Below, piece after piece: positions 43,880-56,025 of a DNA stretch of 64,000 nt. The DNA comes from a virus: positions 1 through 64,000 of the IMG/VR virus record IMGVR_UViG_3300042352_001346. One strand, given 5' to 3'. Below the pieces are notes generated by a model that saw only the letters and a program-made list of their open reading frames with translations, did no database searches and was not told where the DNA came from. The position numbers were made by a program, and so were the translations under genes. Every line of letters begins with the position of its first letter. Position 1 is the first letter of the stretch.

Positions 43880-44782
43880 ATGTTTTCATATTGTTGTATT
43901 AATACAGAATTGCAAAAGCAAGGAATAACTACAAATCGTACTATACGTAAAGACCGTTTTGAAAAAGAAGGTTTAAAATTATGCGGTGAATTAGCTTTAG
44001 CTAATTTAACTGATTTAGTAAAAATTTTAAGTTGGAATAATGAAAATAATATAAAATGTTTTCGTTTAAGTTCAACTATATTTCCTTGGTCTAGTCAATA
44101 TAATATAGAAGATTTACCTAATTATAATTGTATAAAAGAACAATTAATATTTATAGGTAAATTTATTCAAATACATGATATTCGTGTATCTTTTCATCCT
44201 GACCATTTTTGTGTTTTAGGTTCAGATAGAGAAAAAATTGCTTTGAAAGCTGCAAAAGATATTAATTTTCATAGTCAATTATTTGATTTAATGGGATTAG
44301 AACAATCTCATAAGTATCCCATTAATATACATGTAGGTACTACAAAAGGTGGTAAAGAAAAAGCTGCTCTTAGATTTTGTATTGCTTATGAATTATATTT
44401 ATCCGAAGGAGCAAAGAAAAGATTTGTAGTTGAAAATGACGACCATCCTACAGAGTTTACTCCGGAAGATTTATACAATATGATTTGGCGTAAAATACAA
44501 ATTCCTATAACATTTGATTATTATCATAATAAATTAAATCCAGGCAAATTAAATGAAATGTCTGCTTTTAAATTATGTTATATGACTTGGAAAAATGTTA
44601 AACCTTTATTTCATTACTCAAGTTCAATGAGAGAAGAATATAAAGATAATGCTATAAAAATAACTGCTCATAGTAATTATATTTTAGAAGAAATTAATAT
44701 TTATTTAGATGTAGATATTGATTTAGAAGCAAAAATGAAAGAACAAGCAGTATTAAGGTATTTAAATACTTTTAATAAATAA
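43880..44782 (+). CDS. uvsE: UV damage endonuclease (UVDE/UvsE family)
   Basis: 300 residues, the usual core length. TIM-barrel UVDE signatures are present: SYCCIN at the N-terminus, CFRLSSTIFPW, RVSFHPDHF (two His ligands), NIHVGTTKGGKEKAA, RFVVENDDHPTEF, ITFDYYHNKLNP and a late LFHYSSS. Enzymes of this family nick DNA 5' of UV photoproducts and other lesions, giving the phage a light-damage repair route. The last base of the stop overlaps the next ATG. Confidence 0.85.
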   Translation: MFSYCCINTELQKQGITTNRTIRKDRFEKEGLKLCGELALANLTDLVKILSWNNENNIKCFRLSSTIFPWSSQYNIEDLPNYNCIKEQLIFIGKFIQIHDIRVSFHPDHFCVLGSDREKIALKAAKDINFHSQLFDLMGLEQSHKYPINIHVGTTKGGKEKAALRFCIAYELYLSEGAKKRFVVENDDHPTEFTPEDLYNMIWRKIQIPITFDYYHNKLNPGKLNEMSAFKLCYMTWKNVKPLFHYSSSMREEYKDNAIKITAHSNYILEEINIYLDVDIDLEAKMKEQAVLRYLNTFNK

Positions 44783-49527: not shown

Positions 49528-50001
49528 ATGGCTTATAAAGATAGAAATATTAGTCCAGTTGAATTTTTAAAAAGATTACAATTAGAGTATATTTGTGCAG
49601 AAATTAGAAAGAAAATTTATATTACTGATTCAGATGTTTCATATTGGAATAAAGTAATGGAAGGTAAAAAAATTAAAATAATTGATTTATCTACTAAAAA
49701 TTTTTTACCAACTATTTTCAATAATGATGAAGAAAAAATAGCCTTATATAAAGAAGTTTATAATCAACAAGGATTGCCTAATTTTATTTATAAAAATCAA
49801 TCTACTGAATTAACTTTAAAACCAAATGATATTAAATTTTATTATTATCCAAATACATCAGTTAGAGTTTATCCAAAAAATGAACCTATGTTTTTAGGTA
49901 CTATAAAATTTACTAATTATGAAGCTGAATTATTAGAAATTCATAGTAATAGTGGTGAAGTTGGTGTATATCCAATGTCGCAAGTATCAAGAATATTGTA
50001 A
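49528..50001 (+). CDS. Hypothetical protein between primase and polyamine-like genes
   Basis: 157 residues, mixed fold; LRLEYICAEIRKKIYI-like helix at the N-terminus and beta segments later (KFYYYPNTSVRVYPKNEPMFLGTIKF). No family recognised. It lies 7 nt after the primase, so it is probably cotranscribed with it and with the ureohydrolase that follows. Confidence 0.6.
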   Translation: MAYKDRNISPVEFLKRLQLEYICAEIRKKIYITDSDVSYWNKVMEGKKIKIIDLSTKNFLPTIFNNDEEKIALYKEVYNQQGLPNFIYKNQSTELTLKPNDIKFYYYPNTSVRVYPKNEPMFLGTIKFTNYEAELLEIHSNSGEVGVYPMSQVSRIL

Positions 50002-50021: not shown

Positions 50022-51098
50022 ATGAATAATAAATTATTTTTAACTGATTTTTCTTTTGAAGAAAGTGAAATTGTTGTAACTCCTGTTAATTTTGATTTAA
50101 CATGTTCTTATGGTTTAGGAACGGCTAAAGGTCCAAATTCTTTAATAAAAGAATCAGTTCAAATTGATAATCACTTCCTTAATAGGAAACATAATTCAGT
50201 TGAAGAACCTGCTAAATTCTTTTTAAATAAAGGAGAAATTATTAATGAAATTGCTAAAGCTAATTCATCTTTACGCAAAAGTGTTAATTTATATTGGGAT
50301 ATGGTAGATGAAACTTCTAAAGGAGTTGAAGAAACTGACCAAATAAAAGAACGTAAAAAATTTATTATTAATAGTGTAAATCAATTGCAATCAAATATAT
50401 TTACTATTACAAATTTAATTACAGAAAATGTATTAGAAAATAATAAAATACCTTGTATAATTGGAGGAGACCATTCAATAATTGAAGGTGCTTTATTTGC
50501 TATTGATGAACAATATAAAGATAATTATAATATTTTACAAATTGATGCTCATTGTGATTTAAGAATAGGAGGATATGAAGGATTTGAAAAAAGTCATGCT
50601 TCAATTATGGCAAATATTCTTAGTAATAATATTAATGTAAAATCTTTGGTACAAGTTGGTATTAGAGATTTTTCTAAAAATGAATATAATTTAACTTCAA
50701 TAACTCCTAGACAAGAATTTACAAATAAATATTCACCTACACCTATTTATAAATTTTTAGATGAATATATAGCAGAAGCTGATTATTCATTTAATGGTGG
50801 TGGGTATTTACATAATATTGTTGAAAAAATAGCTTCTGTATTTAATGTAAATAAATGTAAGAATATTTATTTAACATTAGATGTTGATGGTTTAATTCCT
50901 TCTCTTTGTTCCAATACAGGTACACCTGTACCAGGTGGTTTAGATTTTAATAAAGTATTGTTTTTAATTAAAAAATTAAAAGAATGGGGTTTTAACTTTA
51001 TTGGTTTTGATATAGTTGAAATTGGAAATGATAAATTTGATGGTAATGTAGCAAGTCGTTTATTGCATCAAATTGGTAATATAATTACAAAATATTAA
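50022..51098 (+). CDS. Ureohydrolase, agmatinase/arginase family
   Basis: 358 residues. All binuclear-manganese ligands of the family are in place: H151 in GGDHS, D175/H177/D179 in QIDAHCDLR, and D287/D289 in LDVDG, followed by TGTPVPGGL. Members hydrolyse guanidino compounds (agmatine, arginine, guanidinobutyrate) to urea and an amine. Residues about 55-115 form a helical insertion similar to that of agmatinase-family proteins of Bacteroidota. The next gene, 12 nt downstream, encodes a deoxyhypusine-synthase-like enzyme. Agmatine to putrescine is the reaction I would test first; the exact substrate cannot be read from the sequence. Confidence 0.8.
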   Translation: MNNKLFLTDFSFEESEIVVTPVNFDLTCSYGLGTAKGPNSLIKESVQIDNHFLNRKHNSVEEPAKFFLNKGEIINEIAKANSSLRKSVNLYWDMVDETSKGVEETDQIKERKKFIINSVNQLQSNIFTITNLITENVLENNKIPCIIGGDHSIIEGALFAIDEQYKDNYNILQIDAHCDLRIGGYEGFEKSHASIMANILSNNINVKSLVQVGIRDFSKNEYNLTSITPRQEFTNKYSPTPIYKFLDEYIAEADYSFNGGGYLHNIVEKIASVFNVNKCKNIYLTLDVDGLIPSLCSNTGTPVPGGLDFNKVLFLIKKLKEWGFNFIGFDIVEIGNDKFDGNVASRLLHQIGNIITKY

Positions 51099-51109
51099 AA
51101 ATAAATTTT

Positions 51110-52132
51110 ATGATTATAATTAATGAAAAAAATGGTTTAGCTAAAATACAAAGTATATCAAATTTTATAGAAAAATATATGTTGCATTTTAATGGTGCAA
51201 ATATGGTTGCTTCTGCAAAATCATTGAAAAAACATTTAGATGGTGGTGGTAAATTAATTATTACATTAGCAGGTGCATTTTCTACAGGTGAATGTGGTAA
51301 ATTATTAGCCCAATTAATTAAAGAAGATAAAGTACATGCAATTTCATGTACAGGTGCTAATATTGAAGAAGATGTTTTTCGTTTATTAGGACAAAGTCAT
51401 TATGGATTTAATTTAAAATATAATGATTTAACACCTCAACAAGAACAAGAGATACTTGATAATGATGTTAATCGTGTTACAGATACAATTATACCTGAAA
51501 AACATGTAATTGATATTCTTTATAAAGGTCTTGATGAAGTTTGGTTTGGAGAGTATGAGCGTAGAAAAGCTAAAGGTAAAATGTGGCATGAATATTTTTA
51601 TGAATTATTTAGTAATAATTATATTCAAGAAAATTTAGATAAAGATGCAGTATTAGAAGATAGTTGGTTATATCAAGCTGCACTTAAAAATTTACCTTTA
51701 TGTGTACCTGGAAATTGTGATAGTACAATGGGTAATGTATTTGCTCAACTTGTAATGGAAGAAGATATTGAAAGTTGGATAATTAAACATGATAGTGAAT
51801 ATATGGTTAGAATGGCTAATTGGTATATTGAATGTTGTAATAATGGTCAAAAATTAGCTATGTTAACTTTAGGTGGTGGTATATCAGCTGATTTTCCACA
51901 AACTATTAGTCCTTTTGTTGTAAAAGATTTAAATCATCCAAATGGTGCTGTTTGGTCACATATGACAGTAGTAACAATGGATATGTCTGTAACTGCAGGA
52001 GGTTTTAGTGGTTGTGCATTAAATGAAAAAATAACATGGGCTAAATTAGGTGTTGATTCAGATAAATTTTTAATCAATAGTGATTTTAGTATTGTATTTC
52101 CTTTAATTGCAGCATATTTATTGGAATTATAA
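51110..52132 (+). CDS. Deoxyhypusine synthase-like enzyme
   Basis: 340 residues, full length. Conserved blocks of the family: ITLAGAFSTGECGK, VHAISCTGANIEEDVF (NAD-binding), DVNRVTDTIIPE, LCVPGNCDSTMGNVFA, LGGGISADFPQ and NEKITWAKLGVD. The lysine of the last block (K312) is the residue that carries the aminobutyl imine intermediate in characterised enzymes. These enzymes transfer an aminobutyl group from spermidine (NAD-dependent), to a protein lysine in archaea and eukaryotes, or to putrescine in bacterial homospermidine-synthase-like members. A phage copy is unusual. It shares an operon with the ureohydrolase. Confidence 0.85.
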   Translation: MIIINEKNGLAKIQSISNFIEKYMLHFNGANMVASAKSLKKHLDGGGKLIITLAGAFSTGECGKLLAQLIKEDKVHAISCTGANIEEDVFRLLGQSHYGFNLKYNDLTPQQEQEILDNDVNRVTDTIIPEKHVIDILYKGLDEVWFGEYERRKAKGKMWHEYFYELFSNNYIQENLDKDAVLEDSWLYQAALKNLPLCVPGNCDSTMGNVFAQLVMEEDIESWIIKHDSEYMVRMANWYIECCNNGQKLAMLTLGGGISADFPQTISPFVVKDLNHPNGAVWSHMTVVTMDMSVTAGGFSGCALNEKITWAKLGVDSDKFLINSDFSIVFPLIAAYLLEL

Positions 52133-52147
52133 ATAATTTAAAAGAGA

Positions 52148-52179
52148 TTTGGAAGTTTTAAAAAAGGTTTTTATTTTTG
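52148..52179 (+). promoter_or_regulatory. Bacteroidota-type promoter for the amidinotransferase-like gene
   Basis: TTTGG at 52148-52152, 19-nt spacer and TATTTTTG at 52172-52179, with the ATG at 52205. It lies between the deoxyhypusine-synthase-like gene and the amidinotransferase-like gene, so the cassette has at least two transcription starts. Confidence 0.65.
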
Positions 52180-52204
52180 TATAAGAAAATTAAATATTAA
52201 TAAA

Positions 52205-53176
52205 ATGCAAAGAAAAGTAAAGTCAATATTAACGACAGCTATTTTTGACGACCCTATAGTTAGTTTAGGCAAATTAGATATGCCAGTATATGCAATGGTT
52301 CCTCCTCTTGGATTTCATGCTAATAATGTAGAAAATAATTATATGAGGTCACTATCTGATGAAGATAGAAAAGTTGATAAAAGACTTTATTTGCAACAAT
52401 GGGGAGATATTTATAGTTATTTAGCTGCTAACTCTTTAGTTTATTTAATTCCAAATCCAAATGAAGATTTACCTGATTTAACTTATTGTTCAAATATTGG
52501 TGTTTGTCTTGATGATGTTGAAGATGGTAAAGTATTTATAGCAAGTAATTTTTCTGCTAAATCAAGAACAGGAGAAACTGCAGTTGGTTATAATTTCTTT
52601 AAATCTATGGGGTATGAAGTTCATGAATGCCCTTATAAATTTGAAGGTTCTGCTGATATGAAACAAATTAAACCTGGTGTTTGGGTTGGTGGATATGGAG
52701 TAAGAACTGAAAAAGAAGCTTATGATTGGATGGAAGAAAAATTTGGCATTAAAATTATAAAAGTAAAAATGCTTAATGATGATTTATATCATCTTGATTG
52801 CTGCTTTATGCCAATTACTAAATTATCTGCTTTATGTTGTAAAGAATGTTTTAGTAAAAAAGATATTGAAACAATTGAAGAAGAAACCGGTATTTATTTA
52901 TATAATATACCATTACAATATGCTGAATATGGTGGTACTAGTTGTATAAGAATGTATAATTCATTATTATTTGCATCTTCACTTGATTATGAAATACCAG
53001 GTACCGAAGAATATGAAATTGAAAAAGGTAAATGTGATTTAATTGAAGAAATTGCATCAGAAGAAGGTCTTGAAATTGTTTACTTTGATATGTCAGAAGG
53101 TTGGAAAGCGGGAGCGGACATGTCGTGCTCATTTTTGGAAATAAACCGTAATTCTTTTAAAATAGATTTACAATAG
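52205..53176 (+). CDS. Amidinotransferase/deiminase-superfamily enzyme (DDAH-like)
   Basis: 323 residues with the pentein-fold catalytic pattern: LPDLTYCSNIGV (guanidino-binding region), KFEGSADMK (E147, D151), VGGYGVRTEKEAYDW, LYHLDCC (H196) and a C-terminal KAGADMSCSFLEINR with the nucleophilic Cys (C308). Such enzymes act on arginine, methylarginine, agmatine or amidino donors by hydrolysis or transfer. The order in the cassette suggests arginine or agmatine as substrate. G+C rises noticeably in the last ~80 bases, a possible junction. The substrate is not resolvable from sequence. Confidence 0.75.
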   Translation: MQRKVKSILTTAIFDDPIVSLGKLDMPVYAMVPPLGFHANNVENNYMRSLSDEDRKVDKRLYLQQWGDIYSYLAANSLVYLIPNPNEDLPDLTYCSNIGVCLDDVEDGKVFIASNFSAKSRTGETAVGYNFFKSMGYEVHECPYKFEGSADMKQIKPGVWVGGYGVRTEKEAYDWMEEKFGIKIIKVKMLNDDLYHLDCCFMPITKLSALCCKECFSKKDIETIEEETGIYLYNIPLQYAEYGGTSCIRMYNSLLFASSLDYEIPGTEEYEIEKGKCDLIEEIASEEGLEIVYFDMSEGWKAGADMSCSFLEINRNSFKIDLQ

Positions 53177-53278
53177 CAGAGAAGAAACTGCCATGATTAG
53201 TGTTTTTTTAACCTACTTGGCACTTAAGAAAAACTTACAACCAGTTTTATAGCTAGTTGTTTAAAATTTAAATTTATT
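53177..53278. other. Intergenic stretch, weak hairpins only
   Basis: This 102-base gap holds a 4-bp GCAG/CTGC hairpin followed by a T7 run (53202-53208), possibly a weak terminator, and an imperfect ACAAC/GTTGT pair. It has no clear TTTGG/TAnnTTTG promoter for the decarboxylase gene after it. Confidence 0.4.
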
Positions 53279-54031
53279 ATGTCTTATTCAATAGAACATT
53301 TCGTAAGAACAATAGTTGAACCTGCAAAACGTAAAGGTAAAAAATATCTATCAGAAGAATTTTTTTACCGCAATCCCAATAGACCGCAAAAAATAAATTC
53401 CAATTATTTTTATGCACCATCAGATGGTATTATAATTGGAATGAAAGAAGTAATGCTTAAAGATAGTATTTGTGAAATAAAGGGAGAAGCATATACTTTA
53501 GATGATGCAATGGGTGGAAGATTATCTGATGAAGATTATGGTTTTCGTTCTAAAGATAAATTTTTAGTTGTTGAAGTATTTTTAACGATGTATCATGTGC
53601 ATTATACTCGTGTACCTTATGGTGGTATTATTAATACAGAATATTTACCTCCTATTTTAACTCAAAATCTTCCTATGTTAAGTATGGAAAATGACTTATT
53701 AAAAGGAATTGTAAATATGAATAATGCTGATTATTTATTTAATAATTATAGAGCATTTCAATCAATTTATAATCCAAAATTTCAAATTAATTATTTTGTA
53801 TTAAATATAGCTGATTATGATGTTAATGCTATAATTTCTCATCATCAAGACGGGGATTTAATTGGACAAAATGATATACTTGGTGCTATGCAATATGGTT
53901 CGCAAGTAACTTTAATAGTTCCAAAACCTAAAAAATATGATGATTATGATTTAATATTTAATTCTAATCTTAAAGTTGGTGATTGTATTGAAGGTGGATT
54001 AGATTATTTAATTGAATTTATAGATAAATAA
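53279..54031 (+). CDS. Phosphatidylserine decarboxylase-like pyruvoyl enzyme
   Basis: 250 residues. Key blocks of the PSD family are visible: YFYAPSDGII (catalytic D49), EIKGEAYTLDDAMG, FLTMYHVHYTRVPYGGII (H106, H108) and a C-terminal MQYGSQVTLIVP, where G207-S208 is the self-cleavage site that turns Ser into the pyruvoyl group. The usual GST motif is GSQ here. The enzyme should decarboxylate an amino-carboxylate, normally phosphatidylserine to phosphatidylethanolamine. Near the polyamine genes it might instead decarboxylate arginine, ornithine or a nucleotide-linked amino acid; this is a guess. No membrane helix is present. Confidence 0.75.
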   Translation: MSYSIEHFVRTIVEPAKRKGKKYLSEEFFYRNPNRPQKINSNYFYAPSDGIIIGMKEVMLKDSICEIKGEAYTLDDAMGGRLSDEDYGFRSKDKFLVVEVFLTMYHVHYTRVPYGGIINTEYLPPILTQNLPMLSMENDLLKGIVNMNNADYLFNNYRAFQSIYNPKFQINYFVLNIADYDVNAIISHHQDGDLIGQNDILGAMQYGSQVTLIVPKPKKYDDYDLIFNSNLKVGDCIEGGLDYLIEFIDK

Positions 54032-54080: not shown

Positions 54081-54476
54081 ATGTTACTAGTAGCAACACG
54101 TTTGGACGTATCTCCACTTATTCCAGCAGACCATAAGAAAAAAATTGGTTTGTTTGCAGATGAATTAATTCCTGCAGGTACTAAAATTTGGGAATTTACA
54201 AAAGGTATTGATAAAGAAGTATCAGAAACCAATGTAAATAAATTGCCTAAATTGCAAAAAGATTTTGCAAATAGTCAATATCCATGGACAGAAAAGTATT
54301 ATCTTATTTATGGAGATAATACAAGATTTATTAACCATTCAGAAGAACCAAATGTTGGTGAAGAAGGTGATTACCTTGTAGCCTTAAAAGATATTCAAGT
54401 TGGAGAAGAACTTGTATCTGATTATAGAACATTTGAAGAAAATTTTGAAGAATTTAAAGCAGAATATTTTAATTAA
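54081..54476 (+). CDS. SET-domain protein (lysine methyltransferase-like)
   Basis: 131 residues, a minimal SET domain. GLFADELIPAGTKIWEFTKGID forms the N-terminal strand pair; FINHSEEPN (N85-H86-S87) is the conserved SAM-binding knot motif and GEELVSDYR (Y115) the C-terminal catalytic part. There is no post-SET cysteine cluster. Such proteins methylate lysine side chains; in a phage the target may be a phage or host nucleic-acid-binding protein. It is followed by a terminator and so ends the transcript of this part. Confidence 0.8.
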   Translation: MLLVATRLDVSPLIPADHKKKIGLFADELIPAGTKIWEFTKGIDKEVSETNVNKLPKLQKDFANSQYPWTEKYYLIYGDNTRFINHSEEPNVGEEGDYLVALKDIQVGEELVSDYRTFEENFEEFKAEYFN

Positions 54477-54494: not shown

Positions 54495-54535
54495 AAGCAA
54501 CAAGAATGTATTTATTGCATTCTTGTTGCTTTTTT
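54495..54535 (+). terminator. Rho-independent terminator after the SET gene
   Basis: AAGCAACAAGAATG (54495-54508) and CATTCTTGTTGCTT (54518-54531) pair perfectly over 14 bp with a 9-nt loop, followed by a run of T. It lies inside an apparent upstream extension of the next reading frame, so the extension is not coding. Confidence 0.9.
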
Positions 54536-54554
54536 AATTAAAAAATTAACTATA

Positions 54555-55061
54555 ATGATATTATCATCAGAAAAAATATTAGAAAGAGACCTTTTACAAA
54601 CTAATGGTAAAGGTGAAGCACAACAATGTGGTTATGATTTAACCCTTTGTAGAGTAACTCAAATACAAGGAAATAGTTTTATTGGAAAAGATAAATCTTT
54701 TATTCCTGAATATATTGAGATTGAAACTGATATATATGTATTTCCTGATGGTAGTAAAAGAGAAGGATGGCATTTATTACCTGGTATTTATAGTTTAACT
54801 TATGAACAAGGTTGTAAATTAGATGCTAGTCATAATGCAACAGTAAAAAATCGTAGTTCTATGCAAAGAAGTGGTACTTTGATAGAGTCTGGTAAGTTTG
54901 ACCCTGGTTTTTCATGTGATAAAACAGGTTCTACAATGTTTGTTTTTTTACCAATTACAATTGAATTTGGTGCTCGTATATCACAATTTGTAGTATCTGA
55001 AAATTATCCTACAGAAAATTTATATAATGGTCAGTATCAAGGTGAAAAAGATAGAAAATAA
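54555..55061 (+). CDS. dCTP deaminase/dUTPase-fold protein
   Basis: 168 residues from the ATG at 54555; an in-frame codon upstream (54483) would include the terminator, so it is rejected. Family features: QQCGYDLTLCRVTQI, TVKNRSSMQRSGTLI, ESGKFDPGFSC and a late beta segment VFLPITIEFGARISQFVV. The glutamate that serves as the catalytic base in dCTP deaminase (in the segment after DPG) is not obvious, and the FDPG Asp fits a dUTPase-like role. It would feed dUMP or guard against uracil in DNA. Confidence 0.7.
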   Translation: MILSSEKILERDLLQTNGKGEAQQCGYDLTLCRVTQIQGNSFIGKDKSFIPEYIEIETDIYVFPDGSKREGWHLLPGIYSLTYEQGCKLDASHNATVKNRSSMQRSGTLIESGKFDPGFSCDKTGSTMFVFLPITIEFGARISQFVVSENYPTENLYNGQYQGEKDRK

Positions 55062-55074
55062 ATAAATTTATTAT

Positions 55075-56025
55075 ATGGCAGTATTACTTAAAACATCATC
55101 ATTAAGTTATGATGATGTTACTTTATTAGCACAATTAGGAGTTGTAGATAGTAGAAAAGAAGTACCTATTGAAGGTAATCGTATAGTTGTTTCAGCTATG
55201 ACTAGTATAATTGGACCTGCTTTTATTAAAGCAGTTGCAAGTATTTCTCATAATTGGCAACCTACTCTTCATATTCCAAGGGATGAATATAAATTTGAAA
55301 ATGTAAATTTATGTAAAAAATATAATTTAAAAAATATATTTATAGGTGTTGGTTTGAAAGAAGATATTGGATTTGAAAATCATGTATTGTTTCTAACAAA
55401 TTACAGAGTAGCTTTTATAGATATTGCAAATGGTTATTTACCTCAAATAAAAGAACGTGTTAATCAGTTAAAAGCTAAAGGATTTGAAAAAGTAATTTGT
55501 GGTTCTGTACATACTAAAGAAGGTGTAGAATATTTATCTAATTGCGATGTTGATATAATTCGTACAGGTATAGGTACATCTTCATCTATATGTTCTACAC
55601 GTTATACAACAGGATTTTATAGAGCAACAATTTCTGAATTATTAGAATGTTGCCCTTATGCTTATAATGAAAGAAAGTTAATACTTGCAGATGGTGGTTT
55701 TAAATATGTAGGTGATTATGCAAAAGCATTCTTAGCTGGAGCATCTTATTGTATGGGTGGAAAATTATTTACTAATTGTAGAGAAGCAAGAATGCATGTT
55801 GATGGTACAGGTGAATATGTAGGTATGTCAAATCCAGTTAAAGGTGTATCAAATAGTGGTTTTGATGAAAGTTTTTCTGTTAAAATACCACCTCCTACTA
55901 AAGATTTACATGATGTGATAAGAGAAATATGGGATGGTTTACGTTCTGCAGTTTCTTATTCAGGATATAATACCTTAGAAAATGCTATTGGTAATGGTGT
56001 TTTTGAACAAAAAATAAAATTGTAA
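55075..56025 (+). CDS. GMP reductase/IMP dehydrogenase-like protein
   Basis: 316 residues with a TIM-barrel core: SYDDVTLLAQLG, VVSAMTSIIG, FIDIANGYLPQ (the GMP-reductase form of the loop), GIGTSSSICSTRYTTG with the catalytic Cys (C173), and LADGGFKYVGDYAKAFLAGA with MGGKLF phosphate-binding. These enzymes interconvert GMP and IMP with NADPH or NAD. With the dUTPase-fold protein it suggests that the phage adjusts purine and pyrimidine pools, or makes an unusual nucleotide. No CBS domains are present. Confidence 0.75.
   Translation: MAVLLKTSSLSYDDVTLLAQLGVVDSRKEVPIEGNRIVVSAMTSIIGPAFIKAVASISHNWQPTLHIPRDEYKFENVNLCKKYNLKNIFIGVGLKEDIGFENHVLFLTNYRVAFIDIANGYLPQIKERVNQLKAKGFEKVICGSVHTKEGVEYLSNCDVDIIRTGIGTSSSICSTRYTTGFYRATISELLECCPYAYNERKLILADGGFKYVGDYAKAFLAGASYCMGGKLFTNCREARMHVDGTGEYVGMSNPVKGVSNSGFDESFSVKIPPPTKDLHDVIREIWDGLRSAVSYSGYNTLENAIGNGVFEQKIKL

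Follow-up and report, generated by a model that had tools for sequence, protein, structure and literature searches.

Introduction

Comparable systems already described are the clusters of speDA, speB and speY, which have been described as homospermidine clusters (PMC10407285), the Thermus route in which a deoxyhypusine synthase (DHS) homolog couples two agmatines and a ureohydrolase then yields homospermidine (PMC10981699), and the pathways of arginase, ornithine decarboxylase (ODC) and homospermidine synthase (HSS) carried by giant viruses such as Klosneuvirus, Tupanvirus and Fadolivirus (PMC9992855). Phage polyamine enzymes as such are already known, and polyamines are of benefit to phages: some need spermidine (PMC9992855), and proteins of phage JBD44 increase putrescine in infection (PMC11898732). 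In the principal survey of polyamine enzymes in viruses, published in 2023, phages contributed no SpeY, no arginase and a single agmatinase, and neither phosphatidylserine decarboxylase (PSD) nor dihydrolase is mentioned (PMC9992855). In this article, we discuss four adjacent genes of the viral contig IMGVR_UViG_3300042352_001346 from IMG/VR, of whose 80.9 kb we analyzed the first 64 kb (the window). They encode, in order, a ureohydrolase of the arginase/agmatinase family (gene 1), a DHS-like or SpeY-like enzyme (gene 2), an arginine-dihydrolase-like protein of the guanidino-group-modifying superfamily (gene 3) and a PSD-family pyruvoyl enzyme (gene 4).

Polyamine synthesis by this cassette is well supported; its substrates, products, step order and benefit to the phage are what we infer. 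Our overall model, which we hold to be probably right, if by no great measure, would convert arginine, by way of ornithine and then putrescine, into homospermidine; agmatine would be a second input, and the polyamines would be made in the phage's host. Like the speDA-speB-speY clusters (PMC10407285), the locus sets a pyruvoyl decarboxylase, a ureohydrolase and the DHS homolog SpeY side by side, but its decarboxylase is of the PSD family rather than an S-adenosylmethionine decarboxylase (AdoMetDC), an arginine-dihydrolase-like gene has been added, and the cassette is phage-borne. With the giant-virus pathways it would share both a viral genome and the sequence of arginine, ornithine, putrescine and homospermidine, whereas the decarboxylase and coupling enzymes are non-homologous and the proposed dihydrolase replaces arginase. 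A preliminary description of this DNA had offered, among other options, an arginine-to-polyamine cassette raising putrescine or homospermidine to neutralize packaged DNA; that option gains support from the surroundings of the genes in unrelated phages and bacteria, as well as from an operon of Bacteroidota and the speDA-speB-speY clusters, while the activities themselves are predicted.

A gene pair shared by phages and bacteria

As the preliminary description had it, no unrelated gene separates the four, all of which are intact and co-directional with intergenic gaps of 11, 72 and 102 bases. The quartet, which it took as one system, consists of two modules that differ in origin, genes 1 and 2 forming one and genes 3 and 4 the other. 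Profile searches of viral contigs gave 141 relatives of gene 4, of which 80 were kept, and 25 of gene 3, and genomes were scanned with a five-sequence alignment. Genes 3 and 4 adjoin in 96 viral loci from marine T4-like, Bacteroides and thermophile phages, mostly overlapping by a base or so and with the dihydrolase gene first in 95, and they adjoin in 29 cellular loci, always with the PSD-like gene first (a 30th is interrupted by an assembly gap), from Verrucomicrobiota, Latescibacterota, Actinomycetota, Campylobacterota, Pseudomonadota and others. Because the two are neighbors in so many viral and cellular loci, the pairing is not chance. Most of the viral loci are marine and mutually related, and the independent lineages perhaps number six to eight. 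The same search also picked up 26 ordinary Bacteroidales PSD loci, and none of them has a gene 3 partner.

The setting of the pair varies. It lies between the major capsid gene gp23 and PhoH in marine T4-like phages and between portal and prohead protease/capsid in one other phage, and in Campylobacter phages genes 3 and 4 occupy the same genomes tens of kilobases apart. One Xanthomonas phage record has a gene 3 match without a gene 4 match, and one contig assigned to a Flavobacteriales genome (L112) has the phage order, dihydrolase first, and a PSD-like gene with 84% identity; it is probably a phage contig within a bacterial bin. PHROG lists both families under unknown function, and in the literature we found no paper linking the two gene types in phages. 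On the boldest reading, to which we give slightly less than an even chance, the pair would be an unrecognized two-enzyme route from arginine to putrescine in which the PSD fold independently became a basic amino-acid decarboxylase. Such a route would be widespread in several bacterial phyla as well as in marine T4-like phages, its genes there having no assignment or being labeled as lipid and amidinotransferase genes.

The preliminary description had counted it against its reading if related phages lacked the four genes together, and this is partly so: the nearest relatives (Bacteroides phage DAC16 and the contigs L088 and L095) have only the pair; helicase, primase, gene 3, gene 4, a dCTP-deaminase-like gene (DCD) and a GMP-reductase-like gene (GMPR-like) are kept, with gene 4 on the opposite strand in L095, but genes 1 and 2 are absent and were therefore probably added in the lineage of the window phage. 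A search of the phage collection with the DHS-like protein and the ureohydrolase gave nothing, or weak partial matches.

The two enzymes of the pair

The AlphaFold2 model of the gene 3 protein is confident (pLDDT 90.4), and its best solved relatives are the cyanobacterial AgrE/ArgZ both by sequence (1e-24) and by fold (E 3e-23, TM 0.76-0.78), with DDAH and then amidinotransferases well behind in the fold search. The enzyme families first assigned to the cassette have held for the ureohydrolase, the DHS-like and the pyruvoyl decarboxylase-like proteins; for gene 3, an amidinotransferase was considered and rejected because amidinotransferases fell so far below ArgZ/AgrE, and a dihydrolase type takes its place. 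The nearest NCBIfam model is likewise arginine dihydrolase (1.5e-23), missed at 83 bits against a cut-off of 450. The invariant residues are N44, D91, N97, R121, E147, R167, H196, D198 and C308. Those that align with AgrE N22, D65, N71, R90, E118, R139, H168 and C264 do not vary among 67 viral sequences, nor among 22 diverse sequences, some of them bacterial; the catalytic E118, H168 and C264 correspond to E147, H196 and C308, and N44 and N97 map by sequence alignment to the asparagines at AgrE positions 22 and 71. Arginine deiminases and amidinotransferases have Asp at the position of dihydrolase N71, and the arginine pair at the R90/R139 positions of dihydrolases holds the substrate carboxylate. 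In structure 6juz, by its title, N71 is substituted and the covalent intermediate held. The conserved R121 and R167 (AgrE R90 and R139) suggest that the substrate still has its alpha-carboxylate and hence that the enzyme acts ahead of the decarboxylation; gene 3 is proposed to convert arginine to ornithine. It has in common with ArgZ/AgrE the fold, the catalytic residues and the N22/N71 and R90/R139 positions, but it lacks the fused ornithine cyclodeaminase domain, is about 20% identical and scores far under the curated cut-off. In two loci the dihydrolase-like gene has large intein-like insertions near conserved motifs, one in L109 (5088-7139) and two in L111 (7679-10507).

The gene 4 model, also confident (pLDDT 90.1), matches E. 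coli PSD first and then PsiD, a member of the PSD family that acts as an L-tryptophan decarboxylase on the free amino acid. Gene 4 shares with the PSD/PsiD family the fold and the PxDG, H and GS pyruvoyl motifs, and its invariant residues are D49, K68, H108, E137, Q197, G207 and S208, GS208 being the pyruvoyl motif. It differs in being predicted to be soluble, in being paired with gene 3 and in its long, fully supported branch from Bacteroidales PSD, and it reaches 53 bits against a cut-off of 183 with the best PSD equivalog model. The N-terminal hydrophobic segment of Bacteroidales PSDs is absent from every member of the gene 4 family tested, and the peak 19-residue hydropathy of the family is 0.11-0.86, against 2.7-3.2 for ordinary Bacteroidales PSD sequences with correctly called starts. 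The natural reading of sequence and model would be a soluble amino-acid decarboxylase, for which ornithine (or arginine) is the proposed substrate. In a quickly built tree, with SH-aLRT support only and several placements on long branches, the whole group is split from ordinary Bacteroidales PSD with full support, and the window sequence joins the Bacteroides-phage group with moderate support (89) and a long end branch.

A probable homospermidine module of Bacteroidota type

Judged from their sequences, genes 1 and 2 make up a putative Bacteroidota-type module for homospermidine, and the host of the quartet-carrying phage is a bacterium of the Bacteroidota type. When 297 Bacteroidota genomes were sampled, about 108 of them were seen to encode full-length relatives of the DHS-like protein at 39-46% identity; there the DHS gene often adjoins an agmatinase gene and, where the locus extends enough, the end of speA; the ureohydrolase precedes the DHS gene, as in the phage, at 11 of 16 loci. 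Set against this speA-agmatinase-DHS operon, the phage cassette keeps the order and a DHS-like protein up to 46% identical but has no speA, and its ureohydrolase is closest, at 39% identity, not to the agmatinase adjoining the host DHS gene but to another Bacteroidota ureohydrolase family of 345-365 amino acids, so genes 1 and 2 were not simply copied together from the host operon.

The motifs GGDHS, DAHCD and DVD of the binuclear metal site in the ureohydrolase align with those of its Bacteroidota relatives, and the protein misses both NCBIfam models, agmatinase TIGR01230 (110 bits, cut-off 174) and arginase (84 bits, cut-off 228). The DHS-like protein has the catalytic-lysine motif NEKITWAKL with K312 conserved and misses the NCBIfam homospermidine biosynthesis protein (92 bits, cut-off 450). 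Together with E147, H196, D198 and C308 in gene 3 and D49, H108 and GS208 in gene 4, these residues bear out the earlier statement that all four proteins retain their catalytic or metal-binding residues. Gene 1 is proposed to turn agmatine into putrescine or to remove the guanidino groups of a coupled product, and gene 2 to join two putrescines (or two agmatines) in an NAD-dependent reaction on the way to homospermidine. There is no match to PF02675, the AdoMetDC-family pyruvoyl decarboxylase, anywhere in the phage contig; two other viral contigs (L200, 2753-7005; L202, 1735-3145) have a SpeY/DHS-like gene near a gene of that family.

Bacterial neighborhoods

Just downstream of the cellular pair there is a MATE pump in 20 of the 27 loci with enough sequence, and an ABC exporter in one, and a PotD/PotF-like polyamine-binding protein (PotD model, 2e-53) lies beside the pair in 10 Verrucomicrobiales loci; such neighbor counts are lower bounds in high-G+C loci, open reading frames having been called by a simple rule. 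Where it extends enough, the Verrucomicrobiales cluster (Table 1) also includes a large sensor protein, which in L119 is a hybrid histidine kinase with a Cache domain, and from its gene content it looks like a system to make, export and sense a polyamine. A divergent gene of the agmatine-deiminase family belongs to the pair's cluster in six loci, five viral and one on a contig labeled Syntrophaceae (L096, L097, L098, L100, L102 and L142).

In six related Verrucomicrobiales genomes with the pair, no SpeA, full PF01276 decarboxylase, pyruvoyl arginine decarboxylase, agmatinase or agmatine deiminase was found; PF02784 matches once in each, apart from one genome with two matches, probably as diaminopimelate decarboxylase. 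Since other carriers have SpeA and agmatine deiminase, this metabolic gap is suggestive and not decisive. A Latescibacterota genome (G001) with AdoMetDC and spermidine-synthase genes and neither ODC nor SpeA looked at first like a clean case of such a gap and was rejected, a PvlArgDC gene having been found beside agmatinase.

The locus and its neighboring genes

Within window DNA of about 21-34% G+C, the gene order is helicase, primase, a small conserved gene, genes 1-4, a SET-domain gene, DCD, GMPR-like and, beyond two short genes, DNA polymerase III alpha, which agrees with the replication-region setting first described (Table 1). The small conserved product had no match in the family-library searches, Pfam and NCBIfam included. 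The SET-domain gene, of the protein lysine methyltransferase type, occupies a slot that varies among relatives: in DAC16 it is taken by a homing-endonuclease-like gene, in L088 by one that is methyltransferase-like. Seven terminator-like sites were seen in 46.5-57 kb where 1.3 are expected, and the longest sits between the cassette with its SET gene and DCD; this strong terminator-like hairpin probably marks the 3' end of the cassette's transcription unit, past the SET gene.

Table 1. Positions in the window of the cassette and its flanking features, and loci of the Verrucomicrobiales cluster (aa, amino acids)
Feature	Position or locus	Strand	Remarks
Conserved small protein just upstream of gene 1	49528..50001	+	homolog precedes dihydrolase gene in L088
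Gene 1, ureohydrolase (arginase/agmatinase family)	50022..51098	+	358 aa; Pfam Arginase 6e-40
Gene 2, DHS-like/SpeY-like	51110..52132	+	340 aa; Pfam DS (deoxyhypusine synthase, PF01916) 2e-33
Gene 3, arginine-dihydrolase-like, guanidino-group-modifying superfamily	52205..53176	+	323 aa; Pfam DDAH_eukar 3e-5
Gene 4, PSD-family pyruvoyl enzyme	53279..54031	+	250 aa; Pfam PS_Dcarbxylase 2e-16
SET-domain protein	54081..54476	+	131 aa; Pfam SET 2e-13; last gene ahead of terminator
Terminator-like stem-loop, 16 pairs, then T-run	54495..54531	+	longest of 7 such sites
Verrucomicrobiales cluster: PSD-like, dihydrolase-like, MATE, PotD-like	L119, L120, L122, L127, L128, L129, L131, L133, L134, L139		

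Beyond the hairpin, DCD (dCTP-deaminase/dUTPase-like) and the GMPR-like gene form a pair at 54534-56025 that is kept in Bacteroides phages and L088, the GMPR-like protein scoring far under curated cut-offs. The two were considered as part of the cassette core, being kept with genes 3 and 4 in the relatives of the window phage, and were rejected, with no match in Campylobacter phages. ThyX is among the nucleotide enzymes near the cassette in the window phage and its relatives, and a gene for the UV-endonuclease UvdE lies at 43880-44782 (Pfam 2e-48).

Proposed pathway and alternatives

In the model that we favor, gene 3 would hydrolyze arginine to ornithine, gene 4 would decarboxylate ornithine to putrescine, gene 1 would draw extra putrescine from the agmatine that the host produces with an arginine decarboxylase of its own, and gene 2 would couple two putrescines into homospermidine, which may neutralize packaged DNA and support translation. 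Several observations weigh against it. All four proteins fall under the curated NCBIfam equivalog cut-offs; the ureohydrolase could instead be an arginase, duplicating the dihydrolase step; and the full quartet was seen in the window contig and in one other that is 99.98% identical over 18 kb, and is thus known from one phage species. In addition, several pair-carrying genomes have SpeA and agmatine deiminase as well and therefore do not require the pair for putrescine, and the gap argument rests on a single clade of related Verrucomicrobiales.

A first alternative, possible but doubtful in our view, makes gene 4 an arginine decarboxylase whose agmatine the ureohydrolase would convert to putrescine and the SpeY-like enzyme to homospermidine, with gene 3 in a side role; the same doubtful standing covers its variant, the caldomycin route, in which the DHS-like enzyme would couple two agmatines before the ureohydrolase strips their guanidino groups. 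It fits both the published speDA-speB-speY clusters (PMC10407285) and the caldomycin pathway (PMC10981699), and in six loci an agmatine-deiminase-like gene next to the pair suggests that agmatine is produced; but gene 3, tightly conserved as it is, would have no role, and its R121 and R167 suggest that it acts before decarboxylation. Either coupling chemistry, of putrescine or of agmatine followed by the ureohydrolase, would end in homospermidine. A second alternative, which we think rather unlikely, limits polyamine synthesis to genes 1 and 2 and has the pair make another arginine-derived amine or guanidino compound that bacteria would export by MATE pumps and phages would use for some purpose of their own; the exporters (MATE or ABC) that adjoin the pair in cellular genomes, the coexistence of the pair with full polyamine pathways in several genomes and the more distant match of the gene 3 fold to the polyamine amidinotransferase HsvA speak for it, while the PotD-like neighbors in Verrucomicrobiales, the agmatine-deiminase-like partners and the joining of the pair to genes 1 and 2 favor polyamines.

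Synthesis of a hypermodified DNA base with an aminoalkyl group, a further option of the preliminary description, would suit the DCD, GMPR-like and ThyX genes near the cassette, but it has become very improbable: marine and Campylobacter phages and bacterial chromosomes have the pair without those nucleotide genes, the terminator divides the cassette from DCD and GMPR-like, and the bacterial pair adjoins MATE exporters and polyamine-binding proteins, not DNA-modifying genes. About as improbable is that the generic annotations are true and that, as Campylobacter phage records and Pfam membership would have it, gene 4 encodes a PSD that makes phosphatidylethanolamine and gene 3 an amidinotransferase that gives creatine-like products, given a PSD-like family without a membrane helix, a gene 4 below every PSD equivalog cut-off, the dihydrolase-like Asn at N97 of gene 3 and the low rank of amidinotransferases in the fold search.

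Implications

If the favored model, arginine to homospermidine by way of ornithine and putrescine, is true, a gene pair present in many viral contigs and several bacterial phyla would gain a function, and the cassette may be the first route between arginine and homospermidine to be seen in a phage. A new origin of basic amino-acid decarboxylation would be possible, and a PSD-type decarboxylase of this kind would be new enzymology. Campylobacter and Bacteroides phages with the pair are cultured, hence the idea is testable, and viral genes now labeled phosphatidylserine decarboxylase or amidinotransferase may turn out to be polyamine genes.

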